Part shown: in pieces, positions 12,705 through 29,136 of the stretch
Position numbering within the stretch: the stretch's first letter is position 1
Layout of the letters: each line of letters opens with the position of its first letter
Assembly (NCBI GenBank): GCA_024278975.1
Contig: JAJRSD010000021.1
Location: forward strand, 1 to 64,000
Direction: 5' to 3'
Origin: Bacteroidota bacterium
Lineage (GTDB): Bacteria; Bacteroidota; Bacteroidia; Bacteroidales; Prolixibacteraceae
DNA: 64,000 bases
Position numbers and translations under genes: made by a program
Notes under the pieces: model-generated
What the model was told of the DNA's origin: nothing
Database searches by the model: none
The model's input: the letters and a program-made list of their open reading frames with translations, nothing else

Positions 12705-14123
12705 ATGAGCATATCGAACAAACATCTCTCGCAAAATTCTTTTCATGGAGAATCTATTTTAAAATCTATGCCTGAGTTTGCTTATGTTTTTAATAAGCAG
12801 GATGAATTGGTTTTGTGGAACAAAAATTTCGAATTGATTTTGGGTTATTCAGCCGATGAATTGTACAAGAAAAGTGTGTATGACTTTATTGCAGAAAATG
12901 AAAGAGATGCCAATACTGAAGCCATTTATAGATTATTTACAGATAAAGAAGAGCAAACCTTAAACCAAAATATTCTCACAAAGTCGGGAGAAATAATACC
13001 TGTGATTGATACAGCCAATTATGCGCTCATAGATGGAGAAGAGTACCTGATAGGCATGGCCATTGATATCAGTAAACTGAGGAAGACTGAATTAAAACTC
13101 CAGCAAGCAATTGGCGAGTTACAAAAATTAAAAGAGCAACTTGAAATCGAAAATATTTACTTACGTAAAGAGATTGAAAACTCGTATGGTTTTGAGAAAA
13201 TTATTGGTAAAAGCGAACAACTTCTGCATAGTTTATACCGCATTGAGCAAGTTGCACCAACAAACTCTACCGTGTTATTAGAAGGCGAAACCGGTACCGG
13301 GAAAGAGCTTTTTGCTCTGGCAATACACAACCGTAGTAATAGAAAAAACAAACCTTTTATAAAAGTGAATTGCGCAGCGTTGCCAGCCACGCTAATTGAA
13401 AGCGAACTTTTCGGGCACGAAAGAGGTTCCTTTACCGGAGCCAACCAAAAACGAATTGGCCGGTTTGAGTTGGCTGACGGAGGAACACTGTTCCTCGACG
13501 AAATCAGCGAAATCCCTGTCGAACTTCAGTCGAAACTACTGCGCATTTTACAGGAGGGCGAATTTGAACGGATTGGCAGCCCCGAAACGATAAAAGTGGA
13601 CGTAAGGATAATTGCTGCCACTAACCTCGACCTTGAAGAACTAATCAGAAAAAAACTCTTCAGAAAAGACCTCTATTACAGGCTGAATGTCTATCCGGTT
13701 ACAATTGCACCGCTCCGCGACCGGCTCTCCGACATTCCATTACTGGCCGAACATTTCTTAAAACGCTGCAATCTCAATTTCGGTAAAAACATCAGCCAGA
13801 TAACAAAAAAAACAATCAAACAACTCCAATCCTACTCGTGGCCGGGAAATATAAGAGAACTCGAAAACATCATCGAAAGAGCAGTGATTATCTCCACCGG
13901 GAAATCACTAACAGTTGAACCACTTTTGAACCCGGATTTCGAAGAGAAAAATATTCTGCTCCCTTTAGACGAACACCAAAGACGTTACATTATTAAGGTG
14001 CTTGAAAAAACTTACTGGAAAGTAGATGGCGCCAACGGAGCCGCACGAATTTTAGACATACATCCCGAAACTTTACGCTCGCGAATGCGAAAATTGAAAA
14101 TCAAGCGCCCAGGTCAATTCTAA
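12705..14123 (+). CDS. Sigma-54-dependent transcriptional activator with PAS sensor
   Basis: A 472-residue enhancer-binding protein. Residues 15-130 form a PAS domain (FAYVFNKQDELVLWNKNFEL), followed by a short coiled coil to about 155. The AAA+ domain has Walker A GETGTGKE (about 190), ELFGHERGSFTGANQ (about 235), Walker B GGTLFLDEISE and the arginine-finger region RKDLYYRLNVYP. The sigma-54 contact loop is GSFTGA rather than GAFTGA. The C-terminus (DGANGAARILDIHPETLRSR) is a Fis-like HTH. No receiver domain is present, so it should answer to a signal bound by PAS or a partner. It is followed by tandem palindromes and the DUF1254 locus, its likely target. Confidence 0.93.
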   Translation: MSISNKHLSQNSFHGESILKSMPEFAYVFNKQDELVLWNKNFELILGYSADELYKKSVYDFIAENERDANTEAIYRLFTDKEEQTLNQNILTKSGEIIPVIDTANYALIDGEEYLIGMAIDISKLRKTELKLQQAIGELQKLKEQLEIENIYLRKEIENSYGFEKIIGKSEQLLHSLYRIEQVAPTNSTVLLEGETGTGKELFALAIHNRSNRKNKPFIKVNCAALPATLIESELFGHERGSFTGANQKRIGRFELADGGTLFLDEISEIPVELQSKLLRILQEGEFERIGSPETIKVDVRIIAATNLDLEELIRKKLFRKDLYYRLNVYPVTIAPLRDRLSDIPLLAEHFLKRCNLNFGKNISQITKKTIKQLQSYSWPGNIRELENIIERAVIISTGKSLTVEPLLNPDFEEKNILLPLDEHQRRYIIKVLEKTYWKVDGANGAARILDIHPETLRSRMRKLKIKRPGQF

Positions 14124-14126
14124 TAC

Positions 14127-14160
14127 CCATTATATTTAATGTTTTCCATTATATTTAATG
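14127..14160. promoter_or_regulatory. Two tandem palindromes, candidate activator-binding sites
   Basis: The 15-mer CCATTATATTTAATG occurs at 14127-14141 and again at 14146-14160, 19 bases apart start to start, and each contains the palindrome CATTA-N4-TAATG. They begin three bases after the stop of the activator gene. Upstream activating sites of sigma-54 activators are typically paired palindromes about 100 bases before the promoter, and a -24/-12-like sequence lies about 100 bases downstream. Assignment to this activator is inference. Confidence 0.5.
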
Positions 14161-14248
14161 CTTTGTGGTGGTTTTTGCAGATAAAGTAAAAACCCAAAAC
14201 CCCCGCAACATACTGATTATCTTCTATTTGAAAAATAAATTTAATTAA

Positions 14249-14264
14249 AGGCATTATTTTTGAA
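14249..14264 (+). promoter_or_regulatory. Possible sigma-54 (-24/-12) promoter
   Basis: AGGCATTATTTTTGAA compares with TGGCACG-N4-TTGCA. GGCA at -24 and TTG at -12 match with correct spacing, but the usual C of the -12 GC is A, a serious weakness. It lies 54 bases before the start at 14318 and about 100 bases after the tandem palindromes, which is the expected geometry. Confidence 0.35.
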
Positions 14265-14317
14265 CAAGACTTTGACAGGATTGTATTTATACTGAAAGCA
14301 TTATACAAGAATAGCAA

Positions 14318-14668
14318 ATGATAAATCTGATAATAACGGTTCAGCCAAAAAGCATAAAGTACCTCGAATTCTCACAAACGCTTGAGCAGATAAAAGGCAA
14401 TTTAAGCCAACACTGCACGAAACTTGCGATTGTCGAAGAGAAGAAAGGTTTTACGATTGTTACAGATTTAAAATCGGCCAAACAGTTATCGTCTATTATC
14501 AATTCAAAAGAGATGGGCATCCTCTCCGGCGCCATAAAAATGCTCTGCAAAGTATCGAAAGCAGTTATTAATGGTGGTGGTTTCGAAAACAAAGCCTATA
14601 ATCTGAAGGAGGTTCAATTTAATTTCACGAGAATAATTCAAAAAAGTAAACATATCACAATTAATTAA
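14318..14668 (+). CDS. Small protein of unknown function, possibly ABM-like
   Basis: A 116-residue cytoplasmic protein without signal peptide. It begins MINLIITVQPKSIKYLEFSQ and continues KGFTIVTDLKSAKQLSSIIN, a beta-alpha-beta layout that resembles dimeric alpha-beta barrel proteins such as the ABM monooxygenase-like family. The similarity is too weak to claim an activity. It is the first gene after the candidate sigma-54 promoter and ends six bases before the outer-membrane transporter-like gene, so the two are probably translated from one transcript. Confidence 0.5.
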   Translation: MINLIITVQPKSIKYLEFSQTLEQIKGNLSQHCTKLAIVEEKKGFTIVTDLKSAKQLSSIINSKEMGILSGAIKMLCKVSKAVINGGGFENKAYNLKEVQFNFTRIIQKSKHITIN

Positions 14669-14674
14669 ATAATT

Positions 14675-15466
14675 ATGAAAAAAAACATTACAACACTTTT
14701 TATCCTACTAACGCTGTTTGGATTTAGTAAACTCCACGCGCAGGAAAAAACTGCTGAGGAGTTGGCAAAAATGTCGCAAAACCCATTGGCAAATATGATG
14801 AGTTTCCCTTTTCAAAACAATACAACTTTTGGTAATGGAGCTGAAGGAGACCGAACTTCGAATACTTTGAACATTCAACCGGTACTTCCATTCTTTAATG
14901 GACATTTAATTACACGAACAATTATCCCTGTAGTTTCTAAGCCAAACTTTACGGAAAATAGTGGTTCATCAACCGGTATTGGAGATATTAGTTCTACCTT
15001 TTTTTACTCACCTACTTCAAAAAATGGTTTAACATGGGGTGTTGGTCCAACATTTCTTATTAATACAAATAATGATTTTTCTTCTCACAAATTTGGGCTT
15101 GGAGCATCATTACTAGTTATAAAAATGAGCAATAAAATGGTTTATGGATTTTTGTTAGCTAATGTTTGGTCAGTGGCAGGAGATAAAAATTATTCTGATG
15201 TTAATTCGTTTATGGGTCAATATTTTGTGAATATGAACTTTCCAAAAGGATGGTACATTTCATCTGCTCCAATTATCACTGCAAATTGGGAAGCAACTGA
15301 TGGTAATAAATGGATAGTACCTTTCGGTGGTGGTGGTGGAAAGATTGTTAGAATTGGTAAAATTCCTTTCAACTTTCAAGCCCAAGCATTTTACAATGCG
15401 GTTAGACCGGATAATTACGGCGGATTTAGCACACGGTTTCAAATCCAATTGATGTTGCCAAAATAA
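14675..15466 (+). CDS. Outer-membrane transporter-like protein (intact copy)
   Basis: A 263-residue protein with a signal peptide (MKKNITTLFILLTLFGFSKL, ending HAQ). The mature part starts EKTAEELAKMSQNPLANMMS and continues as repeated beta-strands ending GGFSTRFQIQLMLPK. The layout (FQNNTTFGNG, LNIQPVLPFFNGHLITRTII, GIGDISSTFFYSP, GLTWGVGPTFLINT) is that of barrel proteins in the broad group of phenol-degradation MetA-like transporters. It probably lets a hydrophobic compound through the outer membrane; the substrate is unknown. A second, broken copy of this gene lies at 25185, on the far side of the DUF1254 array. Confidence 0.7.
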   Translation: MKKNITTLFILLTLFGFSKLHAQEKTAEELAKMSQNPLANMMSFPFQNNTTFGNGAEGDRTSNTLNIQPVLPFFNGHLITRTIIPVVSKPNFTENSGSSTGIGDISSTFFYSPTSKNGLTWGVGPTFLINTNNDFSSHKFGLGASLLVIKMSNKMVYGFLLANVWSVAGDKNYSDVNSFMGQYFVNMNFPKGWYISSAPIITANWEATDGNKWIVPFGGGGGKIVRIGKIPFNFQAQAFYNAVRPDNYGGFSTRFQIQLMLPK

Positions 15467-15484
15467 TCACGAAACTATATTTTA

Positions 15485-15854
15485 ATGAAAAAGATATATG
15501 TTATAATAATAGCCTTCAGTATTAATTTGCCACTGTTACAAGCTCAGGAAACAAACGTTAGTGCTTATCTCGCCGGTGCTTACCAGCCGGGTTTGCTGAA
15601 TGTGCGGGATTTGGCAGCAGTGGGTGCGGGCATCTATTTTTTAGATTATAACTACTGGAACAACAGTAACTCGTATTACGACAGGAATGGAAATGAAGTT
15701 TCCGGATTACGACTATAAAGCACCCGAAGAAGAACTGGTAGCCTTACAAAAAAGCTATTCAGTATGGATGAAAGAGGTATTTGAGACTGGTGCAGCCACT
15801 CACTTGAAATTGGTTGAATTAACCACCCCCGAAGAGTGGAAGAAAATAATGTAA
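15485..15854 (+). pseudogene. Fusion of two gene remnants (barrel N-terminus plus foreign C-terminus)
   Basis: The first frame (15485-15718) starts with a signal peptide and reads AYLAGAYQPGLLNVRDLAAV and FLDYNYWNNSNSYYDRNGN, like the N-terminus of MetA-type outer-membrane proteins, then stops after 77 residues. A second frame, open from about 15687 to the stop at 15852-15854, reads FPDYDYKAPEEELVALQKSY and HLKLVELTTPEEWKKIM, which looks like the C-terminal end of a different, cytoplasmic-type protein that I do not recognise. The likely history is a deletion joining the start of one gene to the end of another. Confidence 0.6.
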
Positions 15855-15915
15855 CATTCTGAAATACAAATATTAATAATATCACAAACAAATAATTCAT
15901 AACAAATTAAAAAAC

Positions 15916-17445
15916 ATGAAATTTAATTTTAAAAAACAACTAAGTCTTATAATTGCCATTACACTTATAGCTTTTATTAGCAGTAATGTAAGTGCTCAAA
16001 AGAAGTACAAAAACACGACCGATATTCCTGAGAATATCACTACGCCCGATGCAGTAGAAACATCCATCGGGACACTTCACTTTTTTGATGGCGTACCTAC
16101 GAAAGAAACAGCAGAATTAACTCAGGATTTCTTATTGAAAGCAAGAGGAGTTGACGCATTTTTAAAAGGAATTCCAGGAGCATCATTACAAGCACTGCGA
16201 AAAGGGCCTGCCGCACTTGGTGTTGATGCAAACGGAAAGGTAGCATTATTTGAGAAGTTAATGGACTCTCATGCACTTTTTCTTACAGCAAATACCTCTA
16301 CACTATACATTTTTCCGTATGTGAACACCACAGACGGCCCTGTTGTTGTTGAAGTTCCGCCTATGATGTTAGGTGCTTTCGACGATGCATGGTTTCGTTT
16401 TGTAAGCGATGTTGGATTAGCAGGACCTGACCGTGGCAAAGGTGGCAAATACCTTATATTGCCTCCGGGATATGATAAGGAGATTCCGGAAGGATATTTC
16501 GTAATTAAGCCTCGTACTTATGCAACTTGGTTGTTTATGCGTGGTAATATTTCAAAAGGTGTTGATGTAGCTGTTAAAAATGTTAAAGATCATTTACAAG
16601 TATATCCTCTTTCAGAAGCCTCTAACCCAAAGCCAGTTGAGTATGTGAATATGACCGGTAAGCCTTTTAATACAATCCATCCTAATAATTTTGAATTTTA
16701 TGAGCATTTAAATGTTCTTATTCAAGAGGAGTCTGACGAAATGTTAGACGACGAAACAAAAGGTTTGTTTGCTTCAATCGGTATTAAAAAAGGCGAGGAA
16801 TTTAATCCTACCGAGAGAGAGAAAAGAATTCTTACCGATGCTGTTGCCATTGCAAATGCTGCCGCAAGAGCAAACAACTACTATCCAACAGGCGACCTGA
16901 AAATGGTTTACTTCTACAAAGATGTTCCAACAGAATGGGTGATGGCTTATCCGGATAAGAATGTTTACTTTAATTACGAGCATGGTTTTAATACCGATGC
17001 AAGAGTATTTTTTCATTACACTTATACTGCTGTAACACCCTCGATGGCAACGCCACACGAAGGAAGAGGTTCTGATTACTGTATCACTTTTAAAGATTCA
17101 AAGCACGAAGTGTTTGATGGTTCTAAAACTTATAAAGTTCATTTACCACCCAATGTACCTGTTGCTGATTTTTGGGCATTAACTATATATGATTCCCAAA
17201 CTCGTTCTATGCTGCAAACCGACCAACCTTACCCTACAGTAGGTAGTAATGATAAAGGTTTTAAACAAAATAAAGATGGTTCTTATGATGTTTATTTTGG
17301 ACCAAAAGCTCCAAAAGGATATGAGAATAATTGGTTGCAAACTATCCCCGGAAAATCATGGTTTGTTATTCTACGAATGTACGGTCCACTTAAGCCATTT
17401 ATTGAAAAAACCTGGAGACCAAGCGAAATAGAATTAGTTAAGTGA
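15916..17445 (+). CDS. DUF1254/DUF1214 exported protein, array member 1
   Basis: A 509-residue protein with a signal peptide (residues 1-31, ending SNVSAQ). The N-terminal DUF1254 part has GVDAFLKGIPGASLQALRKG and MLGAFDDAWFRFVSDVGLAG, then GPDRGKGGKYLILPPGY. The C-terminal DUF1214 part has FWALTIYDSQTRSMLQTDQ, YDVYFGPKAPKGYENNWLQT and ILRMYGPLKPFIEKTWRP. Family members are periplasmic or secreted and widespread, but their reaction is not established to my knowledge. It is the first of five adjacent paralogs and is followed by its own terminator hairpin, so later members may be expressed at other levels. Confidence 0.9.
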   Translation: MKFNFKKQLSLIIAITLIAFISSNVSAQKKYKNTTDIPENITTPDAVETSIGTLHFFDGVPTKETAELTQDFLLKARGVDAFLKGIPGASLQALRKGPAALGVDANGKVALFEKLMDSHALFLTANTSTLYIFPYVNTTDGPVVVEVPPMMLGAFDDAWFRFVSDVGLAGPDRGKGGKYLILPPGYDKEIPEGYFVIKPRTYATWLFMRGNISKGVDVAVKNVKDHLQVYPLSEASNPKPVEYVNMTGKPFNTIHPNNFEFYEHLNVLIQEESDEMLDDETKGLFASIGIKKGEEFNPTEREKRILTDAVAIANAAARANNYYPTGDLKMVYFYKDVPTEWVMAYPDKNVYFNYEHGFNTDARVFFHYTYTAVTPSMATPHEGRGSDYCITFKDSKHEVFDGSKTYKVHLPPNVPVADFWALTIYDSQTRSMLQTDQPYPTVGSNDKGFKQNKDGSYDVYFGPKAPKGYENNWLQTIPGKSWFVILRMYGPLKPFIEKTWRPSEIELVK

Positions 17446-17454
17446 AAAGTCATA

Positions 17455-17484
17455 AAAGGGTGTCATCATACAATGACACCCTTT
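17455..17484 (+). terminator. Terminator or attenuator after array member 1
   Basis: A 12-bp perfect stem AAAGGGTGTCAT/ATGACACCCTTT (17455-17466 and 17473-17484) with a six-base loop, followed by ATTTAA. The tail is only weakly T-rich, so partial read-through into the second DUF1254 gene, 16 bases on, is plausible. Confidence 0.6.
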
Positions 17485-17500
17485 ATTTAAACATAAAACC

Positions 17501-19000
17501 ATGGTTATAAAAAGAGTATTATTATTAGCATTTTTATTTATAGGTAGTCTTAGTTTTGTAAATGCACAAAAATACAAAGCAGATGTTCCCAAAAACATTA
17601 CCACAAACAATACCTATCAAACTAAGTACGTGGGTGAATTAAATTTTAAAGATGGATTTCCATCTGACGAAACCGTACAAAAAACCTATGACTTTTTAGA
17701 TGTAGCCAGAGCAACTATGGTGTTTACCAACACTATTGGTATTGGTTCAATGCAAGCCATGTTGGAAGGTCAGCGAAAAGCTGGAATTGGCCCCTATGAA
17801 ATTGCCGTATTCGAAAATCTTTTGGATGCTCGATCTCTTTGGCTTACCCCGAACACTACTACGCCTTATGCCGTTGGTGAAATTGATACAAAAAACGGCC
17901 CGGTGGTTGTCGATAATCCCGGCCCGGTATTAGGTATTGTTGATGATGCTTTTTTTACACATGTTACCGATATTGGATTTACCGGTCCCGACAAAGGAAA
18001 AGGTGGAAAATACCTTTTTGTAGCTCCAGATTATAAAGGTGAAATTCCGGATGGATATATTGTTATTCGAACCCGTGGTTACCGTCACTGGTTAATTATG
18101 CGATTAATTGTGAAAGATGGCGATGTAAAGTCTGCTGTTGACGCTTTTAAATCAGGATTTAAAACTTATCCTCTTTCTAAAGCAGACAATCCACCAAAAC
18201 AAGTTTTTCATAATTTTTCAGGAAAGAAATACTGTACTATCCATGCGAATAATGCTGAATTCTACGATGAAATAAACGCATCGGTACAATATGAGCCAAC
18301 CGGTGTATTTAGCCCAGAAATTAACGGACAAATGGCTTCAATTGGAATTAAGAAAGGAAAAGAATTTAAGCCAAACGAGCGTTGGCAGAAGATATTAGTT
18401 GAAGGTGCAGCAATGGGTAATGCATCGGCAAGAGCCATTCTTTTTAGCCCTCGTAACAAAAACGTATTTTTCTACCCAGGCAAACGTCAGTGGTATTCGC
18501 CATTAGCAGGCGGGAGTCATGAGTTTTTAAATAATGGTGAATTGGTACAATCTGACAGAACTATGATGCTCTATTACGCAACTGGAATTACACCATCAAT
18601 GGTGCTTCCTAAACCAGGCACTGGCTCTGTTTATGAGATTACAGGCCGCGATTCTGAAGGAAACTATTTAGATGGTGGTCAAAATTATTCAGTAACACTT
18701 CCTGGCCCTATTCCAATCAATAATTTTTGGTCGTTTATGGTTTATGATGCTCAAACACGATCGGTATTAGAAACAGACCAAAAGTCTGGTGGAGTTGATG
18801 GTAATAGAGATGGATTAATAACAAACAAAGATGGTAGTGTAACGATCTATTTTGGACCAGAAGCACCAAAAGGACATGAAAAAAACTGGGCACAAACAAT
18901 GTCAGGCAAAGGATATACGATTCTATTAAGGCTGTATGGACCATTAGAACCATGGTATGATAGAAGTTGGGTGCCAGGAGATTTAGAATTAATTAGATAA
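17501..19000 (+). CDS. DUF1254/DUF1214 exported protein, array member 2
   Basis: A 499-residue protein with signal peptide MVIKRVLLLAFLFIGSLSFV, ending NAQ. The same landmarks are present as in member 1: GIGSMQAMLEGQRKAGIGPY, LGIVDDAFFTHVTDIGFTGP, DKGKGGKYLFVAPDY, CTIHANNAEFYDEINAS, then FWSFMVYDAQTRSVLETDQ, VTIYFGPEAPKGHEKNWAQT and LLRLYGPLEPWYDRSWVPG. The length is very close to member 1 and the two are clearly paralogs. It ends 14 bases before member 3, so members 2, 3 and 4 form a compact unit. Confidence 0.9.
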   Translation: MVIKRVLLLAFLFIGSLSFVNAQKYKADVPKNITTNNTYQTKYVGELNFKDGFPSDETVQKTYDFLDVARATMVFTNTIGIGSMQAMLEGQRKAGIGPYEIAVFENLLDARSLWLTPNTTTPYAVGEIDTKNGPVVVDNPGPVLGIVDDAFFTHVTDIGFTGPDKGKGGKYLFVAPDYKGEIPDGYIVIRTRGYRHWLIMRLIVKDGDVKSAVDAFKSGFKTYPLSKADNPPKQVFHNFSGKKYCTIHANNAEFYDEINASVQYEPTGVFSPEINGQMASIGIKKGKEFKPNERWQKILVEGAAMGNASARAILFSPRNKNVFFYPGKRQWYSPLAGGSHEFLNNGELVQSDRTMMLYYATGITPSMVLPKPGTGSVYEITGRDSEGNYLDGGQNYSVTLPGPIPINNFWSFMVYDAQTRSVLETDQKSGGVDGNRDGLITNKDGSVTIYFGPEAPKGHEKNWAQTMSGKGYTILLRLYGPLEPWYDRSWVPGDLELIR

Positions 19001-19014
19001 ATATAGCAATAGAG

Positions 19015-20595
19015 ATGAAAAATATTTTATTAGGAATAGTATTAGTTTCAGGACTAATATTTACAAGTTGTAGCCAAAAAGAGACAACTGAAAAAGAGAC
19101 AGATATAAAAAAATCAAAAGGGGTCTCTTTTGAGAAAATTGCGGACAAACTTACAGCAACCGAATTTCGTAAATATGGCGAAACCTCTCCAACAGTTGTT
19201 AATACACGATTTGGCGATTTGAGTTTCACCAAAGGTGGTTTTGCCGGAGGATATCCAACTTTAGAGACAAGCGAGAAATTAAAAAACGAACTTAATTTTC
19301 AAAAAGCATGTCAAGCGTATATTTGGGCCGTTCCGTTGGTGAGTTACTACAACTGGTTTGATGCACAAAAATCATTTGGCGCTAAGGATGGTGGTATTGT
19401 TCAGTATAAAACAGCTATTGCCAAACAAGGCATTTTAACAGGAAATGGAACTACGCCTTATGCGATTATGTATGCTGATTTAATGAATACTGGACCTCTT
19501 GTAATGGAAGTTCCCGCTGGAGCATCGGCAGGTATTATTGACGATATGTTTCAACGTGCGGTAATGGATTTTGGTGTGTCTGGTGAAGACAGAGGGAAAG
19601 GTGTGAAATTTATCATTCTGGCTCCGGGCATGGAAGCCCCCAAAAGCTATGATAAGAAGAAATTTACCATTGTGCAAAACACAACAAGAGATGTATTTGT
19701 AGGTATCCGTGCCTTGCAACCAGATCCAAAAGAATCGGACGCCTTTTTAAAGAAATTTAAAATTTATCCATTCTCAGAAATCAATAATAACCCTCAAACT
19801 CAATTTATTGTGGTTGACGGAAAAACACCCTGGGGCCAATGGCAAGAACATGGAATGGCATATTGGGAAACTGTTAAACAAATTGTTGATCACGATATTT
19901 TCTCAGAGCGCGAAGGTTATGTTTTAGCGATGCTTCAATCATTGGGTATCGAAAAAGGTAAGCCTTTTAACCCAACACCAGAGATGAAAAAAATGCTTAA
20001 GGAAGCAGCAGTTGTGGGTGAGACAATGGTAAAATCAATCACGTTTGACAAGCCATTTAGAGCCGATGATTTATATAAAGGAACACATTGGGACAGACTT
20101 ATGGTTCCTGCTTATAATGACAAAGATGGTGATATTGAGCAATTGTATAAGCGCGCTGCTTTTACTTGGGAAGCTGTAAGTAGAGGAAAAGCATATTATT
20201 TGGAAATGCCAGGCTTAGGTCAGCAATACCGTACCGGATACAAAGATGCTGATGGAAATCACTTTGAAGGAAGTCGTCATTATACGCTTACTATGCCAGC
20301 AAACCCACCAGCAAAAATATTCTGGTCTATTGTTGTGTACGATGTAAATACGCGTACTATGATTCTTAATGAAACCGGAATTCCTATTATAAGTGGAAGA
20401 ACTAACCCAAAACAGGAAGCTGATGGGTCAGTTGTTATGCATTTCAGTCCTGAAAAACCTGCAGGTGTGGAAGCCTCAAATTGGATTCAAACCAACCCAA
20501 AAGAAAGTTGGTTTCTTTACCTTCGTTTCTATGGTCCAACAGAGCGTTATTTTGATGAAACTTACCCATTGGAAGATGTTAAATTAGTTAAATAA
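19015..20595 (+). CDS. DUF1254/DUF1214 lipoprotein, array member 3
   Basis: A 526-residue lipoprotein (signal ending LIFTSCSQ, lipidated Cys at about 19). It is the most divergent long member. It keeps ACQAYIWAVPLVSYYNWFDA, GIIDDMFQRAVMDFGVSGED, RGKGVKFIILAPG and, at the C-terminus, IFWSIVVYDVNTRTMILNE and LYLRFYGPTERYFDETYPLE. It lacks the HANNFEFYEE-type motif of members 1, 2 and 4 and has TPWGQWQEHGMAYWETV in its place. That AYIWAVPLV element matches the broader DUF1254 family, so this may be the type closest to other phyla. Twelve bases separate it from member 4. Confidence 0.9.
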   Translation: MKNILLGIVLVSGLIFTSCSQKETTEKETDIKKSKGVSFEKIADKLTATEFRKYGETSPTVVNTRFGDLSFTKGGFAGGYPTLETSEKLKNELNFQKACQAYIWAVPLVSYYNWFDAQKSFGAKDGGIVQYKTAIAKQGILTGNGTTPYAIMYADLMNTGPLVMEVPAGASAGIIDDMFQRAVMDFGVSGEDRGKGVKFIILAPGMEAPKSYDKKKFTIVQNTTRDVFVGIRALQPDPKESDAFLKKFKIYPFSEINNNPQTQFIVVDGKTPWGQWQEHGMAYWETVKQIVDHDIFSEREGYVLAMLQSLGIEKGKPFNPTPEMKKMLKEAAVVGETMVKSITFDKPFRADDLYKGTHWDRLMVPAYNDKDGDIEQLYKRAAFTWEAVSRGKAYYLEMPGLGQQYRTGYKDADGNHFEGSRHYTLTMPANPPAKIFWSIVVYDVNTRTMILNETGIPIISGRTNPKQEADGSVVMHFSPEKPAGVEASNWIQTNPKESWFLYLRFYGPTERYFDETYPLEDVKLVK

Positions 20596-20607
20596 TAATA
20601 TACAACT

Positions 20608-22248
20608 ATGAAATTATCAACGAAATTTTTTGCAGCAATAGCTGTCACCTCAATTATGATAAGCTGTTCTGGCGATGCTCAGAAACAGCAAAATGGGAAA
20701 GCGACTTCCGGTATAGACGACCCGTACAAAGAAATTCTGTCAAAGTACAACACAGATATTCCAACAAAAATTTTAACCCCAGATGTGGTTGAAACTGAAA
20801 TGTTGGGAACTCTTAACTTTTACGACGGAATGCCAACAAATGAAACCGTACAGAAAGTATATGATAACCTTGACTTTATGAGAGGCATTGATGTCTTTTT
20901 GAATTTTATCCCGATGGCTTCGGTAGAAAGCATGCGAACAGGATTGGTTTCTATAGGTGCGGACGACTACAATAAAGTAGCCTATTTTGCCGATTTATTG
21001 GATTCCAGAGCGCTGTTTTTAACAGGTAATTCTACTACTGTTTATGCTACTTCTTTTATCAATTTGAAAAAGGATGGTGTAATGGTTATGGAGATTCCTG
21101 CAGGTGCAGGTCCGGGGACAATTGATGATGCATATTTTCGCTTTATTGTAGATATGGGTGCTCCGGGTCCTGACCGTAAGCAGGGTGGAACTTACGTTAT
21201 TTTACCTCCTGATTATAAGGGCGACTTAAAGCCAACGCCAAATACTTTTAAAGACAATCATTCGGTAAAAGCAATGATTGGTGGCGAAGAACGCGATGTG
21301 TGGATTGCTCAGTCGAGAACTTACTCAAATTGGGTAATTTTACGTGGGTTTTTAGTAGATGGAAAACCAGAACCTGCTGCTAAAATGTGGAGAGATGGAT
21401 TGAAAATCTATCCTCTTGCACAAGCAAATAATCCTAAGAAAATGGAATTTATAAATATTTCAGGAAAAGAGTTTAATACTATCCATGCTAATAATTTCGA
21501 GTTTTTCGAGGAGATATCGAATGTAATTAATAGAGAACCCCTTGAATTTCTTGACCCTGAATTGAGAGGTCAGTTAGCAGGTATTGGAATAATAAAAGGA
21601 CAGCCTTTTGCTCCGGATTCACGAATGAAAAGAATTTTAACAGAATCTGTTAAAGTTGGTAACGCTACGGCACGTTCTCTTTCGTTATTACCACGAAACC
21701 CTAAAGCATATCTATATGAAGATAGCTATTGGTTTGCCGGATTTATTGGTGATGATTACCGTTGGTTAGACCTCGACGGTCACAGAGGTAGAAATATGGA
21801 TGCACGTACAGCATTTTTCTATTCAGCAACGGTAAATACACCTGCAATGGCACTGAAAATTCCCGGTGTTGGTTCTAATTATGCTTTTGGTTCAAGAGAT
21901 AATGATGGTAATATATTAAAAGGTGTCAACAATTATAAACTGCATATCGAAGCTGATGTTCCTGCAAAAGATTTCTGGTCGATTGTGGTTTACGATCCTC
22001 AAACTCGTTCTGAATTACAGACCGACAATCTTTTCCCTAATAAAAATAACAAACGCGATAAGTTAATTTATAACGAAGATGGTTCTGTTGATCTCTATTT
22101 TGGCCCAACAGCTCCAAAGGGAAAAGAGATCAACTGGATTCAAACAGTTCCCGGTAAAGCCTGGTTTGTACTGTTCCGTTTATATGGACCGCTACAGCCA
22201 TGGCACGATAAAACATGGCAGTTGAATGATTTTGAATTAGTAAAATAA
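20608..22248 (+). CDS. DUF1254/DUF1214 lipoprotein, array member 4
   Basis: A 546-residue lipoprotein (TSIMISCSGDAQ, lipidated Cys near 20), the longest member. Landmarks: GIDVFLNFIPMASVESMRTG, GTIDDAYFRFIVDMGAPGPD, FNTIHANNFEFFEEISNV, FWSIVVYDPQTRSELQTDN, VDLYFGPTAPKGKEINWIQT and LFRLYGPLQPWHDKTWQLND. Compared with members 1 and 2 it has an insert of about 20 residues around TFKDNHSVKAMIGGEERD. It is followed by a clear terminator, which closes the unit of members 2-4. Confidence 0.9.
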   Translation: MKLSTKFFAAIAVTSIMISCSGDAQKQQNGKATSGIDDPYKEILSKYNTDIPTKILTPDVVETEMLGTLNFYDGMPTNETVQKVYDNLDFMRGIDVFLNFIPMASVESMRTGLVSIGADDYNKVAYFADLLDSRALFLTGNSTTVYATSFINLKKDGVMVMEIPAGAGPGTIDDAYFRFIVDMGAPGPDRKQGGTYVILPPDYKGDLKPTPNTFKDNHSVKAMIGGEERDVWIAQSRTYSNWVILRGFLVDGKPEPAAKMWRDGLKIYPLAQANNPKKMEFINISGKEFNTIHANNFEFFEEISNVINREPLEFLDPELRGQLAGIGIIKGQPFAPDSRMKRILTESVKVGNATARSLSLLPRNPKAYLYEDSYWFAGFIGDDYRWLDLDGHRGRNMDARTAFFYSATVNTPAMALKIPGVGSNYAFGSRDNDGNILKGVNNYKLHIEADVPAKDFWSIVVYDPQTRSELQTDNLFPNKNNKRDKLIYNEDGSVDLYFGPTAPKGKEINWIQTVPGKAWFVLFRLYGPLQPWHDKTWQLNDFELVK

Positions 22249-22259
22249 GTAGGGGTGAT

Positions 22260-22296
22260 GCAATTGTCCCATAATTGGGATAGTTGCTTATTTTTT
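22260..22296 (+). terminator. Terminator after array member 4
   Basis: A 12-bp stem with wobble pairs (GCAATTGTCCCA at 22260-22271 with TGGGATAGTTGC at 22276-22287, loop TAAT) is followed by TTATTTTTT. It separates members 1-4 from the shorter member 5, which has its own 70-base upstream region. Confidence 0.75.
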
Positions 22297-22318
22297 AACA
22301 ATTAAAAATAATATAAAA

Positions 22319-23389
22319 ATGAAGACAACAAAATTTTTATTCGCAGCATTAGCTGCATCGGTATTAACTTTTAGTGCTTGTAACAACGCTCCTAAGAAAA
22401 CTGCTGATGTCGCAGATTCTAAAGTTGAACAAAAAACAGTAACTCCTGTAACTGATGAGAATTACGGATTAGCAGAGACACAAACAATAATGGCTTCTTA
22501 CGTAAAAAAAATTGCAGCAGCTACAGGAACTAACGGTGTTGGTGTTTGGATGCATAATAAGAAAGCAGCTAATCCAAAAGATAGAGACATAATGCGTAAA
22601 AATTACGACACTATGTACTCTTGGATTGTATTAGATTTATCTACTCCAGCTACTTTAATCATGAAGGATACTGGTGGACGTTACCAAACTATGTGGGTAA
22701 TATCTGAAGAGCATTATAACCCGTTTGCTTATATTGAGCCGGGAGAATATACACTTACAGCAGAAAATGTGGGAACACCTTATGCAATTGTTGTTGTTCG
22801 TACACAAGTAAATGTAACAGACCCGGAAGATGTTTTGGCTGCAAACAAAATTCAAGAAACTCTTGAAATAAAACAAGAGAAGCCTGGTACTTATGTGCAA
22901 TCTCACACCTGGGATATGGTAAGATTAAAAGAGATTAGAACAAAATACCAACAAATCGCTAAGAACGAAAAAATTAGTCCTGATACTTATTTTGGTAAAA
23001 AAGGTGAAGTAGCTCTTAAAAATCACAACTGTGGCACAGCAGTTGGCTGGGGTGGTTTCACAAAAGACCAGGCAGCTTATGTAGATTATTACCCTACTTC
23101 TGCAGCACCTCAAACATTAACATTAAAAGACATTCCTGCTAAAGCATTTTGGTCTATTACTGTATATGATAAAGAAGGTTTTGCCATAACAAAAACCTAT
23201 AACATTAATTCTCAATTTGCTAAACAAGAAAAAGATGGTTCTGCAATTATCCATTTTGGAGGAGATGCTAATCAAGATAACTATATGGAAACATTTGAAG
23301 GGTGGACTTTTATTCTGCGTCTGTATTTGCCTACTGATGAATATTTGAATGGTACATGGGTACGTCCGGAACTGACTCCTGCTGCATAA
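22319..23389 (+). CDS. Short DUF1254/DUF1214 lipoprotein, array member 5
   Basis: A 356-residue lipoprotein (VLTFSACNNAP, lipidated Cys near 20). It belongs to a compact version of the family: IMRKNYDTMYSWIVLDLSTP, ATLIMKDTGGRYQTMWVISE, YIEPGEYTLTAENVGTPYAI, then NCGTAVGWGGFTKDQAAYVD, KAFWSITVYDKEGFAITKTY and FEGWTFILRLYLPTDEYLNG. It is about 150 residues shorter than its neighbours, having lost the long central part. A different substrate or a subunit role is possible, but nothing in the sequence decides it. The gene is set apart by a terminator upstream. Confidence 0.88.
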   Translation: MKTTKFLFAALAASVLTFSACNNAPKKTADVADSKVEQKTVTPVTDENYGLAETQTIMASYVKKIAAATGTNGVGVWMHNKKAANPKDRDIMRKNYDTMYSWIVLDLSTPATLIMKDTGGRYQTMWVISEEHYNPFAYIEPGEYTLTAENVGTPYAIVVVRTQVNVTDPEDVLAANKIQETLEIKQEKPGTYVQSHTWDMVRLKEIRTKYQQIAKNEKISPDTYFGKKGEVALKNHNCGTAVGWGGFTKDQAAYVDYYPTSAAPQTLTLKDIPAKAFWSITVYDKEGFAITKTYNINSQFAKQEKDGSAIIHFGGDANQDNYMETFEGWTFILRLYLPTDEYLNGTWVRPELTPAA

Positions 23390-23475
23390 AGCTAAGTTAA
23401 TTAAATCAAATAGTGCTTGTCCATAAAGTCAAGAAATCGGACTTAAGAGGCGAACTCTAATTAAAAAATAAGAAT

Positions 23476-25167
23476 ATGGCTTTAAAAAAAATCATTTTAA
23501 TCATACTGCCTCTTTTATGGGGGAGTATGGTTTTTTCTCAAACAAATAAGAAACCTAAACTTATTCTTCAAATCACTGTGGATCAACTCCGTGGCGATTT
23601 GCCTGAAAAGTTTATGAAAAACATGGGAGAAGGCGGTTTCAGGTATTTGCAAGAACAAGGTATTTGGTACACAAATGCACATTACGGTCATGCAAACACC
23701 GAAACTGTTGTAGGGCATACTATTTTAGCAACGGGAGCAGACCCTTCTGTAAATGGTATGATTTCTAACGTTTGGTTCGATAGAGAAAAAGGCAAGCTTG
23801 TTTACAATATCGAGGACGATAACTGTCATATTTTATCGTCAAATGCCGATGTTGATCAAAGTACAGAGATAGATGCATCTCAAAAATTAGCTTCATCTGA
23901 CGGTCGTTCGCCAAGAAATATTATGGTTACCACTTTTAGCGATGAGCTTTTTCTAAAAAATAATGGTAAATCAAAAATATTTGGTGTATCGGTAAAAGAC
24001 AGAGGAGCAGTTACCCTGGCCGGACATACAGGAAAAGCATTTTGGTTTTCAAAATCTTCAGGAGAATTTATTACCAGTTCATATTACTATAAAGCATACC
24101 CTGAATGGGCAACAAATTGGAATAAAAGTAAAATACCTGCAAAAAACTTTGGTGGTAAATCGTGGGAGTTGATGAATGATAAATCAACTTATATGTATGG
24201 GGATGAAGATAATATGCCATGGGAAACAGATGTTGCCGGTTTTGGCATTACTTTTCCACATAAATACCAGCCTGCTGACAATAAATATTTTAATAATTTT
24301 TTAATATATTCTCCTGCCGGCGACGACCTTACTTTAGACTTTGCCAAAGCTTTAGTTAAAGGCGAAAGTATTGGAAAAGATGATATTACCGATTTTTTAT
24401 CCATTAGTTTTTCATCTACCGATTATGTTGGGCACCTGTTTGGACCATCGAGTTTAGAAGCCGAAGATAATATGCTACGATTAGATAAAACATTGGCAGA
24501 TTTATTTGCTTTTATCAATAAAGAAGTAGGATTAGAAAACACCCTTATTATTCTCTCCGGAGACCACGGTGGTCCTGAAGCTCCCGGTTATTTAAAATCG
24601 AAAGGTATTGAATCGGGATATGTTTCGCCGGATGAATGGGATAAAAACCCGTCTATCAACAGATTGAAAAAACAATTTGGTATTGGTCAGGAATTAATTC
24701 AGGAATTTTTCCCTCCTTATCTCTATTTAAATGAAAAAGTAATTACTGATAAGGGATTAGATTTGCAGGAAGTTGAAAAAGCAGTTGCATTAGAGTTGAT
24801 GGGAATAAAAGGTGTAGCACTTGCAGTAACCCGAACCGAATTGGAACAAAACGAACTTCCTGACACCTATTTAACCCGGAAAGCTTTAAGAAATTTCAGT
24901 ATAAAAAGATCGGGAAATATCTTGATTTTATTTCAACCTCAGTATTTTATTAATCATTATGACGGAGAAGTTGTAGCAGCAAATCATGGAGGACCATGGA
25001 TGTACGATTCTTATGTACCGGTGATTTTTGCAGGTATGCATATAAAGGGGCAAAAGGTTAGCAGAAAAATTGAACCTAAAGATATAGTATCAACATTATC
25101 AAATCTATTAGGAACAAAGCCTCCTTCGGGTGCTAATGGCGAAGTATTAAAAGAAATAGTTGAATAG
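23476..25167 (+). CDS. PafA-like periplasmic alkaline phosphatase
   Basis: A 563-residue protein with signal peptide (MALKKIILIILPLLWGSMVF, then SQ). It belongs to the alkaline phosphatase superfamily. The nucleophile is probably Thr77 in NTETVVGHTILATG. The Asn in ISNVWFDR and the Lys-x-Arg of SVKDRGAVTLAGH correspond to the phosphate-binding Asn, Lys and Arg described for the Elizabethkingia enzyme PafA. Zinc ligands are in SSTDYVGHLFGP, LSGDHGGPEAP and AANHGGPW. It should release phosphate from phosphomonoesters in the periplasm. It lies immediately after the DUF1254 array, suggesting that a product or substrate of that system is phosphorylated, or simply shared regulation. Confidence 0.88.
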   Translation: MALKKIILIILPLLWGSMVFSQTNKKPKLILQITVDQLRGDLPEKFMKNMGEGGFRYLQEQGIWYTNAHYGHANTETVVGHTILATGADPSVNGMISNVWFDREKGKLVYNIEDDNCHILSSNADVDQSTEIDASQKLASSDGRSPRNIMVTTFSDELFLKNNGKSKIFGVSVKDRGAVTLAGHTGKAFWFSKSSGEFITSSYYYKAYPEWATNWNKSKIPAKNFGGKSWELMNDKSTYMYGDEDNMPWETDVAGFGITFPHKYQPADNKYFNNFLIYSPAGDDLTLDFAKALVKGESIGKDDITDFLSISFSSTDYVGHLFGPSSLEAEDNMLRLDKTLADLFAFINKEVGLENTLIILSGDHGGPEAPGYLKSKGIESGYVSPDEWDKNPSINRLKKQFGIGQELIQEFFPPYLYLNEKVITDKGLDLQEVEKAVALELMGIKGVALAVTRTELEQNELPDTYLTRKALRNFSIKRSGNILILFQPQYFINHYDGEVVAANHGGPWMYDSYVPVIFAGMHIKGQKVSRKIEPKDIVSTLSNLLGTKPPSGANGEVLKEIVE

Positions 25168-25184
25168 CTGTTAAAATAGAAAGA

Positions 25185-25561
25185 ATGTATATAAAAAAAA
25201 TAATATTATTAGTTGCCATAATTACTATGAGCTCAAGTCTTTTCTCTCAAGAAAAAACAGCAGAAGAGTTGGCTAAAATGGCACAAAATCCATTGGCAAA
25301 TATGATGAGTTTTCCGTTTCAGAACAATACAATTTGCCAAAAGGTTGGTATCTCACTACCATCCCGATACTCACAGCAAACTGGAAAGCTACCAATGGAA
25401 ACAAATGGGTAGTACCTTTTGGAGGTGGCGGTGGTAAAATTGTACGAATAGGAAAAATCCCGTTCAATTTACAGGCGCAGGCATTTTACAATGCTGTAAA
25501 ACCCGATGGTGCCGGCGGGTTTAGCACCCGGTTTCAAATTCAGTTAATGCTGCCAAAGTAA
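25185..25561 (+). pseudogene. Internally deleted second copy of the transporter-like gene
   Basis: The first frame starts with a signal peptide and reads EKTAEELAKMAQNPLANMMS and FPFQNNT, nearly identical to the gene at 14675, then shifts out of frame. From about 25332 another frame reads LPKGWYLTTIPILTANWKAT to GGFSTRFQIQLMLPK, the exact C-terminus of the same family. About 130 codons between FQNNT and PKGWY are absent, and the join (near 25331, ACAATTTGCC) is out of frame. It follows the phosphatase gene by 17 bases, so it was probably part of that transcript. Confidence 0.85.
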
Positions 25562-25672
25562 TCTAAACAATGCACATATTTTTTTAATCATAAAATTAAA
25601 GTAATATACGAATGAAAAAAACGAAAACAATTACAACCCGGGCAACCTCTTTTTTAATACAATAAAGCAACT

Positions 25673-26326: not shown

Positions 26327-26375
26327 AATAGCATCAATTATTTAGAATGAAAACATTAAAAAGAAAATAATAAAG

Positions 26376-26894
26376 ATGAAAAGTTTAATATCCACTTTTT
26401 TACTTGTCAGTTTTCTTGGTGTCAACTTGTTTGCACAAGACACAGAACACGAAGAGAAAAAACATTTAATAACCGGCGCACTCGGCTACACCTATATTCC
26501 GCAAGGAGCTTCAGAACATTCCGATGCGGCTGATGGAGTTTTTATACCTTCAATTGGGCTCGACTATTTTTATTCAATTTCGCACCGCTGGGAAATTGGG
26601 ATTATGACCGATTTGGAACTTGGCGAATACCTCGTTTTCGATAAAGACTTAAACCGGAAAAATGCATTGGTAGTTGCAGGAATAGCAGCATTTGCACTCA
26701 CCAAACACATCAATGTTTTTGCCGGCGGCGGAATGGAATTCGAGAAAGAACACAACCTTGCGGTTATCAGAGTTGGTACCGAATATGCTTTCAACCTGAA
26801 AAAAGAGTGGATTATTGCACCCGGAATATTTTTCGATTTTAAAGAGGGAATCGATACCTGGTCGTTATCGGTAGCTTTTGGAAAAGAATTTTAA
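26376..26894 (+). CDS. Small outer-membrane beta-barrel protein
   Basis: A 172-residue protein with signal peptide (MKSLISTFLLVSFLGVNLFA, then QD). The mature part has amphipathic strands: HLITGALGYTYIPQGAS, FIPSIGLDYFYSISHRWEIG, NALVVAGIAAFALTKHINVF and the closing WSLSVAFGKEF ending in Phe, as expected for an outer-membrane barrel recognised by BamA. The acidic-His start DTEHEEKKH might bind metal but this is a guess. First of a run of closely spaced exported-protein genes. Confidence 0.6.
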   Translation: MKSLISTFLLVSFLGVNLFAQDTEHEEKKHLITGALGYTYIPQGASEHSDAADGVFIPSIGLDYFYSISHRWEIGIMTDLELGEYLVFDKDLNRKNALVVAGIAAFALTKHINVFAGGGMEFEKEHNLAVIRVGTEYAFNLKKEWIIAPGIFFDFKEGIDTWSLSVAFGKEF

Positions 26895-27649: not shown

Positions 27650-27666
27650 TTAATTGAATTGTGAGA

Positions 27667-28581
27667 ATGCTTATTAATAAAATATCACTTTTACTACTAT
27701 TCGGAGTTTTTGCGACAACGCTGCTTGCACAAGACCTTGAGCCACGCTCTTTGTCATCTATTCCAATCGGAGGAAATTTCCTGATTGCTTCATATGGCTA
27801 CTCTGCCGGAAATATTTTGCTCGACAATACACTGCCAATTGAAGACCTGAATGCCAATATTAACAGTGCTGTTGTTGGTTATGCGCGAAGTTTTAAACTG
27901 TTTAATAAGCTGGCAAAGTTCGATGCAATTGTACCTTATTCTTTCGGCAACTTTGAGGGGAGAGTGAGTGGGACTGACTCATCGACAACACGAACAGGAT
28001 TTGGTGACCCGTTGATTCGGGTATCAATAATTTTGATAGGGGCAAAACCTCTTACAATGAGTGAATTTGCAACCAACAAACCGCAAAAGTTTAAACTTGG
28101 TGTTAACTCAAGGGTAAAACTGCCCATCGGACAGTACGATAAAACAAAATTTATTAACTTGGGTTCCAACCGCTGGGCACTGAAATTAGGAGTTGCCGGG
28201 TCTTATTCTATTCAGAAAAGAGTTGTTATTGAGGCACAGGTAAACACCTGGTTTTTTGCAAAAAACGATGAGTTTTTCGATGGAAATACAATCGAACAAA
28301 AACCTTTACTTAGTGGTCAGATTCATGGAACATGGATTTTTAAACCCGGGGTTTGGGCAGCTGTTTCGTTCGGGAGAAGTGCCTTTGGAGAAACAATTAT
28401 TAATGGTGTTGAAAAAGAAGATCTGAAAAATAGTTCACGTTTCGGAGCTGCTTTTGCCTGCCGGGTAAGTAAACACAGCTCGCTAAAAGTAGCGGTAACC
28501 AGTGGACTATCCACTCGTTATGGAGCCGATTTTACATCCATCCTTGTAGCTTACCAGTTTATGTGGTTCGATAAAACTTAA
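27667..28581 (+). CDS. MetA-type outer-membrane transporter-like protein
   Basis: About 304 residues with signal peptide MLINKISLLLLFGVFATTLL, then AQ. The ATG at 27667 is preferred; a GTG at 27661 would add two residues. Landmarks of the phenol-degradation MetA-like transporter group: YGYSAGNILLDNTLPIEDLN, AVVGYARSFKLFNKLAKFDA, GFGDPLIRVSIILIGAKPL, and FKLGVNSRVKLPIGQYDKTK. Related barrel proteins are usually annotated only as transporters. It belongs to the same broad class as the gene at 14675 but is not a close copy. Confidence 0.7.
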   Translation: MLINKISLLLLFGVFATTLLAQDLEPRSLSSIPIGGNFLIASYGYSAGNILLDNTLPIEDLNANINSAVVGYARSFKLFNKLAKFDAIVPYSFGNFEGRVSGTDSSTTRTGFGDPLIRVSIILIGAKPLTMSEFATNKPQKFKLGVNSRVKLPIGQYDKTKFINLGSNRWALKLGVAGSYSIQKRVVIEAQVNTWFFAKNDEFFDGNTIEQKPLLSGQIHGTWIFKPGVWAAVSFGRSAFGETIINGVEKEDLKNSSRFGAAFACRVSKHSSLKVAVTSGLSTRYGADFTSILVAYQFMWFDKT

Positions 28582-28617: not shown

Positions 28618-29112
28618 ATGAGAAAATTACTTATTGTTTTTGCTCTCGTGCCAATGCTGTTTAGTTGCTCTTTACAAAAAGACAACTCGGCACAAAACAT
28701 TGCATTGATTGAGCAGTATGTACAGTCGGTCGAAAATTTAGATTATACAGTTATGGAATCTTTATTAGACGAAAACTATTTTGGATTTGGTCCCTCGTTT
28801 GGCGATTCAATTAACAAAACTCAGGCAGTTGCAGGTTGGAAATATAATGCCGAAAATTTGTACGAAAGTATTAGTTATCAACGTTCGCGAAATGCTGCGG
28901 TTACTATTACAGATGGAGATAATAAAGGCGAATGGGTCTCTAACTGGGGCGAACTTCATATAGTTTATAAAAATGGTGAAGGAAAAGTTACACTTTGGGC
29001 AAATACCATTTACCAAATAGCAAATGGGAAAATTGTTAAAAGCTATACTTTTTACAACGAAGCCGACGCACTTAATCAGTTAGGTTTCGTTTTTGTTCCA
29101 ACTAATTTATAA
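28618..29112 (+). CDS. SnoaL-like (NTF2-fold) lipoprotein
   Basis: A 164-residue lipoprotein (ALVPMLFSCSLQ, lipidated Cys near 17). The mature domain has the NTF2-like cone fold pattern: NIALIEQYVQSVENLDYTVM, ESLLDENYFGFGPSFGDSIN, WGELHIVYKNGEGKVTLWAN and KIVKSYTFYNEADALNQLGF. Such proteins bind small ligands or act as enzymes with a cavity of conserved Asp, His or Tyr. No catalytic residue can be named with confidence. It lies within the exported-protein run with 36 and 24 bases to its neighbours. Confidence 0.7.
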   Translation: MRKLLIVFALVPMLFSCSLQKDNSAQNIALIEQYVQSVENLDYTVMESLLDENYFGFGPSFGDSINKTQAVAGWKYNAENLYESISYQRSRNAAVTITDGDNKGEWVSNWGELHIVYKNGEGKVTLWANTIYQIANGKIVKSYTFYNEADALNQLGFVFVPTNL

Positions 29113-29136
29113 ATAAACACTTAAAAATAGAAAAAG

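Follow-up and report, generated by a model that had tools for sequence, protein, structure and literature searches.

A cluster of five distinct DUF1254/DUF1214 genes with a predicted outer-membrane channel, a PafA-like phosphatase and a candidate sigma-54-type control region in Prolixibacteraceae

The window analyzed here is a stretch of 64,000 nucleotides (positions 1 to 64,000 of contig JAJRSD010000021.1, assembly GCA_024278975.1) from a Bacteroidota bacterium of the family Prolixibacteraceae. It has five consecutive DUF1254/DUF1214 genes at 15916-23389, all on the plus strand, and each product matches both PF06863 and PF06742 above the curated cut-offs. These five genes account for all five PF06863 matches in the 4.65-Mb source genome. 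The array is followed by a gene for a PafA-like phosphatase and has copies of a channel gene on either side, a layout that had been proposed in an earlier reading of the same DNA (the original prediction) and is confirmed by the open reading frames (ORFs) and the Pfam matches. The co-directional cluster is wider than that reading had it; it runs from an activator gene (12705-14123) to about 34000 and consists mostly of envelope genes (Table 1). Loci used for comparison are given as L numbers and sampled genomes of the phylum as G numbers.

The five array proteins appear to be old, separate types that were brought together and not copies of one another, because each is nearest to a counterpart elsewhere and joint clades are rejected by approximately unbiased (AU) tests. 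The other four share 21-45% identity with gene 1. In a FastTree phylogeny of 171 DUF1254 proteins of 300-620 amino acids, out of 183 detected in the fetched loci, gene 1 is placed with proteins of L034, L033 and L035, genes 2 and 3 each with one of L033, gene 4 with those of L034 and the genus-mate L026, and gene 5 with one of L038. The smallest clade of the midpoint-rooted tree that contains any two array genes has 55 tips. An IQ-TREE tree of 54 proteins, for which seven closest relatives per window gene were joined by 14 random proteins and for which the tool warned of long branches, agrees with this placement. The AU test rejects a single clade of the four long genes (p 2.8e-4) and of all five (p 3e-73). 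Tandem duplication is rejected by these tests, and the original proposal that the array arose by local duplication is not supported. That proposal had looked to a common grouping of the five proteins and to conservation of gene order; the five do not group together, although part of the order recurs in other genomes.

Gene 5 belongs to a short subfamily of its own, in which 14 short forms align; one of the 14, from L045, is cut by the contig end. The short DUF1254 gene of L038 is 69% identical to it. In a sample of 395 genomes of the phylum, short forms (judged by open frames of 328-380 amino acids) are present in 5 genomes including the window's, and in 4 of the 5 they lie within about 2 kb of a long form. 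A truncated fifth copy is rejected by both alignment and tree; the earlier description of four full-length paralogs and a short form is therefore right in its five members, but the short gene represents a separate subfamily. A fold like that of VPA0735 was found for gene 1 by sequence (residues 46-509 against 3VB9/2P3Y, E 4e-77) and for gene 5 by an AlphaFold2 (AF2) model with a predicted local distance difference test (pLDDT) score of 85.7, for which Foldseek matches VPA0106, VPA0735 and a Burkholderia structure (3U07, 3VB9, 2P3Y, 6ANS). The closest structures, VPA0735 and VPA0106 of Vibrio parahaemolyticus (2P3Y, 3VB9, 3U07), are thus of the same fold family as genes 1 and 5; they are single structures with titles that give no function, whereas the window has five diverged members together with a channel and a phosphatase.

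The N-termini were judged by eye and with a simple, rough lipobox rule made for the purpose. On this basis, genes 1 and 2 have ordinary signal peptides and genes 3, 4 and 5 encode lipoproteins, in agreement with the two exported soluble proteins and three lipoproteins described previously. The signal type varies between genomes among the counterparts of genes 1, 2, 4 and 5, and the suggestion that it indicates where a shared substrate is handled is not supported.

The DUF1254 proteins are the most constrained part of the cluster, because they have the highest amino acid identity to L033 (92, 87 and 79% for genes 1-3) while third codon positions agree at only 40-61% in all eight genes compared. 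The corresponding identities are 78% for the activator, 73% for PafA, and, downstream, 60% for MetA, 58% for the product of 26376 and 57% for the SnoaL-like protein. In the alignment of the 171 proteins, residues N126, Y131, R209, Y388, Y425, N472, R487 and Y489 (gene 1 numbering) are conserved at 98% or more in the 156 long forms and in all letters of the 15 short forms. W420 and P491 are also nearly universal, with 85 and 92% of the letters of the short forms. These residues look like a pocket shared by both domains.

The activator has a sigma-54 interaction AAA+ domain (PF00158, E 3e-73) and relatives at 78% (L033), 71% (L026) and 45% (L032), and the genome has one rpoN match (E 1e-52). Upstream of the small gene that follows the activator, four loci (the window, L026, L033 and L036) share one strong block in which 22/33 columns are invariant; only 11/33 are invariant in the next separate block. 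The strong block is a tandem palindrome, which in the window reads CATTATATTTAATG twice with 5 bases between. The motif GGCAT-N4-TTTGA, which has only one exact match in the window, lies 89, 89 and 87 bp after the palindromes of the window, L033 and L036, respectively. A sigma-54 promoter has GG at -24 and GC at -12, ten bases apart. Except for GA at -12, the arrangement has the geometry of an enhancer and a sigma-54 promoter, and the two are regarded as candidate elements. This combination, a tandem palindrome conserved in four loci and followed after 87-89 bp by a sigma-54-like promoter in three of them, is newly described here. Promoters of the sigma-70 type are not in excess (60 vs 62.9 expected), and the viral contigs scanned with a degenerate palindrome pattern gave no match.

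The PafA-like phosphatase placed after the array by the original prediction is supported by its match to 5TJ3 over residues 25-562 (E 7.7e-95). It keeps all four residues that are altered in chain 5TOO, as aligned to 5TJ3/5TOO; these are presumably the catalytic Thr, Asn, Lys and Arg of PafA. The enzyme differs from known PafA in its NF042991 score of 474.2 bits, which is under the equivalog cut-off of 650, and in its location in a cluster that looks sigma-54-controlled. Among the 88 loci compared, PafA-like genes were found in 6, a count that takes in the window and contains one genome twice. In L036 the palindrome and promoter seen in the window precede the small gene, gene 1 (72%) and a PF00884 sulfatase.

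Parts of the gene set are kept in L033, L026, L032, L034, L035 and L038, most of all in L033, where the order is partly changed. This Bacteroidales contig from a metagenome-assembled genome (MAG) starts with the activator, small gene, PafA, channel, MetA, DUF308, CorA and DUF2490; continues with gene 1, genes 2 and 3 after an intervening short DUF1254 gene, and a 26376-like gene; and ends with two further genes (one without a Pfam match), a MetA like that of 27661, genes of ligand-gated-channel-like and SnoaL-like type, and a glycine-zipper gene that was assigned by eye. The counterparts of 26376, 27661 and 28618 are in the same order as in the window. PafA is at the far end in the window, with the broken channel directly behind it, whereas PafA and channel overlap at the front in L033. 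L026 has the activator, small gene and gene 4 before the contig ends, and L034 has an Omp85-type gene, gene 1 and gene 4. L032, from another family of the order, combines an activator (45%) and a 105-amino-acid ABM protein with the channel, a gene of the HAD phosphatase type and two DUF1254 genes of the short form. On the Krumholzibacteriota-labelled contig L038 (3751-8333), gene 1 is accompanied by a short gene and by PafA, which is divided over two ORFs, and IS66-like and integrase-like ORFs (by eye) precede these genes. Maribellus sediminis (L043) has a smaller set, with two DUF1254 genes, one PafA-like gene and one TetR gene.

The channel gene (14675-15466) has no Pfam match at E<=1. Its family comprises 18 relatives in the fetched DUF1254 loci, of which the doubtful L047 was left out of alignment and comparisons; PF13557 is reached by 1/18 members scanned, window gene included (E 1e-5). 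The AF2 model (pLDDT 88.9) is a beta barrel with a short N-terminal helix. The best Foldseek match is FapF (5o68), and the further matches include the COG4313 channel 4RL8 of Pseudomonas putida at a TM-score of 0.57-0.60. The window channel therefore resembles the COG4313/PF13557 channels (MetA, SphA) in predicted barrel, helix and structural hits but differs in having no PF13557 match, and the label MetA-type given to it earlier stands for the predicted shape and not for the family model.

The second channel copy (25185-25561) has an internal deletion of 412 bp (repeat offsets 10507 and 10095), a length not divisible by 3, so that the reading frame is lost. In its two pieces it shares 93 and 84% of residues with the intact copy, as compared with 62 and 51% for the next best of 17 other relatives. 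Third codon positions agree at 66% (N part, 29 codons) and 49% (C part, 75 codons), and the first two positions at 0.84-0.97. Since the proteins are 84-93% alike while third positions are only 49-66% identical, the copies are an old pair that was kept under selection and broken later. The intact gene and its close copy reported earlier are thus both present and alike as proteins, but not at third positions. Therefore the frame around the array is real, but there is no support for recent movement of the block: the recent, near-identical flanking copies of a composite mobile block were not found, and recombination between the channel copies, as had been proposed, is unsupported. Third-position G+C is 39% (N), 20% (middle) and 28% (C) in the front copy and 28% (N) and 40% (C) in the rear copy. 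On the basis of these values, it was also considered whether a circle had integrated through a single crossover within the channel gene; the stretches compared are too short for this, and the MetA remnant next to the front copy is at odds with it.

This remnant, which the original prediction missed, is the start of a MetA gene that is cut off (15485-15718). Its identity to the complete MetA of L033, likewise placed behind the channel gene in that locus, is 57%. The L033 gene (6521-7540) is PF13557, whereas neither piece of the window remnant (15485-15854) has a Pfam match. A clean insertion site could not be read from genus-mates. The genes serS and rlmN, which flank the region here, are 395 to 1077 kb apart in the eight genus-mates with both on one contig, and the stretches around serS or rlmN in three genus-mates contain no window gene from the 8.5-36 kb region. 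The channel gene is broken in other genomes too, because relatives in G268 (C18:269628-270398) and G340 (C1:3701848-3702595) have in-frame stops or are split. Two other channel relatives are in plasmid records with incomplete gene tables that list no DUF1254: one near arylsulfatase and HAD genes (L145, 5142-10747) and one near DUF3604, adenylate cyclase and alpha/beta hydrolase genes (L147, 1229-8753).

Table 1. Features of the DUF1254/DUF1214 cluster in the window
Feature	Position	Strand	Basis
PAS-sensor sigma-54 activator	12705..14123	+	Pfam PAS, Sigma54_activat, Fis-type HTH
Tandem palindrome CATTATATTTAATG-N5-CATTATATTTAATG, candidate activator binding site	14128..14160	+	Kept in four loci
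Sigma-54-like promoter GGCAT-N4-TTTGA (GG-N10-GA), candidate	14250..14263	+	Motif and spacing, three loci
Small gene, 116-aa protein without known family	14318..14668	+	Three relatives at 58, 45, 33%
Outer-membrane beta-barrel channel, COG4313-like predicted fold	14675..15466	+	AF2 pLDDT 88.9, Foldseek
Remnant: MetA (PF13557-type) gene start and tail of unknown origin	15485..15854	+	57% to L033:6521-7540
DUF1254/DUF1214 gene 1, signal peptide	15916..17445	+	Pfam; 92-94% aa to L033/L034
DUF1254/DUF1214 gene 2, signal peptide	17501..19000	+	Pfam; 87% to L033
DUF1254/DUF1214 gene 3, lipoprotein	19015..20595	+	Pfam; 79% to L033
DUF1254/DUF1214 gene 4, lipoprotein	20608..22248	+	Pfam; 89% to L034, 68% to L026
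DUF1254/DUF1214 gene 5, short subfamily, lipoprotein	22319..23389	+	Pfam; AF2 pLDDT 85.7
PafA-like phosphatase with signal peptide	23476..25167	+	5tj3 E 7.7e-95; NF042991 below cut-off
Broken channel copy, 412 bp internal deletion, frame lost	25185..25561	+	Comparison with intact copy
Small outer-membrane-type protein	26376..26894	+	58% to L033:15945-16460; sub-threshold DUF6268
Intact MetA-type channel (PF13557)	27661..28581	+	E 1.2e-17; 60% to L033
SnoaL-like lipoprotein	28618..29112	+	Sub-threshold SnoaL; 57% to L033
Omp85-type barrel	29684..30823	+	PF01103; cluster c7, in 7 DUF1254 loci including window

A Pfam scan of the product of the small gene (14318) gave only a sub-threshold match to ACT_3 (E 0.13). 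The possibility that it is an ABM protein like the co-located 105-amino-acid gene of L032 is not supported. A GDPD gene is present at 33225, and no RNA family reaches its gathering score in 11500-34700. Ahead of the activator, 9265-11577 encodes an exported protein of 770 amino acids that contains Pro-Ser-Thr-Gln repeats and matches no Pfam family; in L139 a relative at 40% identity occurs near a channel relative.

DUF1254 is an accessory trait in the phylum, because only 5/25 genomes of the genus group (the window's own included) and 17/395 of the phylum sample have a match. The channel was found in 13 of the 395 and both genes in 10; by genus the numbers are 9, 7 and 5 of 171. The intersections were counted by hand, and the channel scan scored at most six candidates per genome. 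Channel and DUF1254 are adjacent in G000, G216, G362 and G268, about 9 kb apart in G168, and far apart or on different contigs in the other five. The neighbourhood sample comprises the best 80 of 454 relatives, each retrieved by way of a long DUF1254 gene. Two or more DUF1254 genes occur in 54/80 of these named loci, a lower bound as antisense ORFs masked some. Desulfobacula (L077, seven) and Aliiruegeria (L068, four) have several members together as in the window, which differs by its five types, PafA and candidate sigma-54-type control.

The channel is a recurrent neighbour of DUF1254 genes across phyla, with 12/16 copies within 2.5 kb as compared with 354/907 of the non-DUF1254 genes (p 0.0036). 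Regulators of the AraC (c4, 13/14, p 4e-5, four loci being Microbulbifer) and TetR (c10, 6/6, p 0.003) clusters are also within this distance. These p values come from 25 clusters tested without correction.

By record titles, DUF1254/DUF1214 genes are found in Bacteroidota, Planctomycetota, Pseudomonadota, Chloroflexota, one cyanobacterium and one archaeon. The best segments of gene 1 are 71-91% identical to proteins on contigs labelled Bacteroidetes, Spirochaetes, Planctomycetota and Krumholzibacteriota or -iia, and the gene is closer to these than to its genus-mates (59 and 48%). The G+C is 60.1% for the Planctomycetota contig L037 (gene 54.6%) and 59.2% for the Krumholzibacteriia contig L039 (gene 58.5%); because of this contig composition they are hardly stray Bacteroidales DNA. 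In L035 the gene 1 counterpart has 41% G+C, the two ORFs in front 52-54% and the ORFs behind 47-48%. The pattern fits an exchange of gene 1 between phyla, with the labels of short MAG contigs being unproven. Plasmid records, most often of rhizobia, contain gene-4-like sequences in 213 cases and channel-like sequences in 133. Four records labelled Listeria phage (4 to 48 kb) contain DUF1254, and two of them cover at least 80% of gene 1. On a Sinorhizobium plasmid (L141, 9001-15957) two DUF1254 genes are directly before a cbb3 oxidase operon (ccoNOQP).

The reading preferred here, tentatively, is that the cluster encodes an inducible envelope system for the uptake and processing of amphipathic molecules, with an exchangeable phosphatase or sulfatase. 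The PAS protein would sense a signal, bind the tandem palindrome and open the sigma-54 promoter ahead of 14318. COG4313 channels have been implicated in the uptake of hydrophobic or amphipathic molecules, sphingosine among them, in the available text of PMC4493636. By analogy, the COG4313-like and MetA-type channels may pass such molecules through the outer membrane. The substrates would be processed by the DUF1254/DUF1214 proteins, acting as exported or lipid-anchored enzymes, in a pocket to which both domains contribute conserved N, Y, R and W residues. The five genes may be old specialized types, each collected for its own substrate or step. The PafA-like enzyme would strip phosphate from the substrate or product, and a sulfatase, PAP2 or HAD enzyme seems to replace it in other clusters of the family. 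The original prediction had proposed an undescribed uptake or catabolic system; an undescribed envelope cluster of this kind with activator, channel and phosphatase remains the best reading, but its duplication and movement are not supported.

Several results weigh against this reading. GAFTGA is the consensus of the loop that contacts sigma-54; the L033 activator has it, whereas the loop reads GSFTGA in the window and GSFSGA in L026. The palindrome rests on four loci, and a narrow pattern that fits the window and L036 but misses the L026 and L033 forms has one match in G000 and none in the 394 other sampled genomes of the phylum. L026 has the palindrome but not GGCAT-N4-TTTGA, with the -24 part missing, and three of the four loci have GG-N10-GA, in which the -12 element reads GA and not GC. 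Exact copies of the promoter motif occur in 7/147 loci, the window, L033 and L036 among them. In the window the motif with 1 mismatch is found 9 times vs 7.9 expected, and TGGCACG-N4-TTGCW with 2 mismatches 5 times vs 6.45 expected. One transcript over all five genes is not assured because of terminator-like hairpins between genes 4 and 5 (22260-22287, plus strand, 12 pairs) and genes 1 and 2 (17455-17484, minus strand, 13 pairs); such sites number 23 in 14000-33500 vs 14.3 expected.

The hydrolase counts favour the reading in part. Sulfatase, PafA, PAP2 and HAD genes make up 16/242 of the same-strand genes within 2.5 kb of DUF1254 genes and 15/775 of the others (86 loci, p 6e-4), but this grouping was chosen after seeing the maps, the count includes one genome twice (Maribellus sediminis, L028 and L043) and the L038 PafA as two ORFs, and p rises to 0.055 regardless of strand. 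For sulfatases alone, 8 are near and 9 far (8/17, p 0.33), and a sulfatase link by distance alone is not significant. The data on function weigh against the reading. Foldseek with the gene 5 model returned no enzyme of known function at a useful score, and the fold gave no clue to the DUF1254 reaction. The open-licence literature searched by COG, Pfam and gene names gave no reaction, substrate or function of a DUF1254 protein. The portions of it retrieved name the family only in gene or fold tables, and VPA0735 only as the end of a listed gene range. The text of PMC4634964 retrieved states that all Malassezia yeasts carry a PF06742 gene and proposes a glycosyl-hydrolase-like jelly roll by modelling.

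The main rival, itself rather unlikely, is an envelope-stress or low-oxygen response, in which the DUF1254 proteins would have a protective or repair role at the envelope and no catabolic one, and the barrels would serve efflux or maintenance. DUF1254 genes are listed in gene tables of a phage-shock study (Listeria lmo1241), an NnrR study (Bradyrhizobium bll2664) and an iron study (Caulobacter CC_2518), and the Sinorhizobium plasmid has ccoNOQP after two of them. The DUF308, CorA and ligand-gated-channel-type genes around the L033 array and the glycine-zipper and SnoaL-like neighbours in the window also suggest stress. However, the AraC, TetR and LysR regulators near DUF1254 genes look substrate-responsive, and the patchy spread (17/395 genomes) points to an accessory trait more than to a core stress system. 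Phosphate scavenging, with PafA as the main enzyme freeing phosphate from organic phosphate and the DUF1254 proteins as helpers, is quite improbable. The four presumed catalytic residues and the GDPD gene are consistent with it, and the available text of PMC8812569 reports that PafA frees phosphate from phosphomonoesters in flavobacteria. The same text describes PafA as made constitutively, whereas expression of the window cluster looks inducible. In L036 it is a sulfatase that follows gene 1, on a 4-kb contig too short to exclude PafA elsewhere, and the low PafA count given above also disfavours this explanation.

The cluster could also be a chance collection of diverged DUF1254 proteins and barrels on a shuffled island without joint function. 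The loose order among genomes, the failure of the five genes to form a clade in the AU test, the decay seen in two remnants and the hairpins between genes 1 and 2 and genes 4 and 5 would agree with this. Such a collection is improbable, however, given the repeated occurrence of two or more DUF1254 genes (54/80 named loci), the co-occurrence of channel and DUF1254 (both in 10 of 395 genomes) and the palindrome and promoter spacing common to several loci. Within 21.6 kb, L033 also keeps the activator, small gene, PafA, channel and MetA, together with three long types out of four, one short form that is distantly related and several of the genes downstream.

The cluster links the DUF1254/DUF1214 proteins with a channel, with an ester hydrolase and with a candidate regulatory site of defined position. 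It is conceivable, though somewhat doubtful, that the family as a whole is an undescribed class of enzymes, periplasmic or lipid-anchored, whose partners are a dedicated channel and an ester hydrolase that can be exchanged (phosphatase or sulfatase), with old paralog sets being reassembled, exchanged between phyla and, here, placed under a conserved sigma-54 enhancer and promoter. The candidate regulatory site would offer a direct way to the inducer and thus to the substrate.

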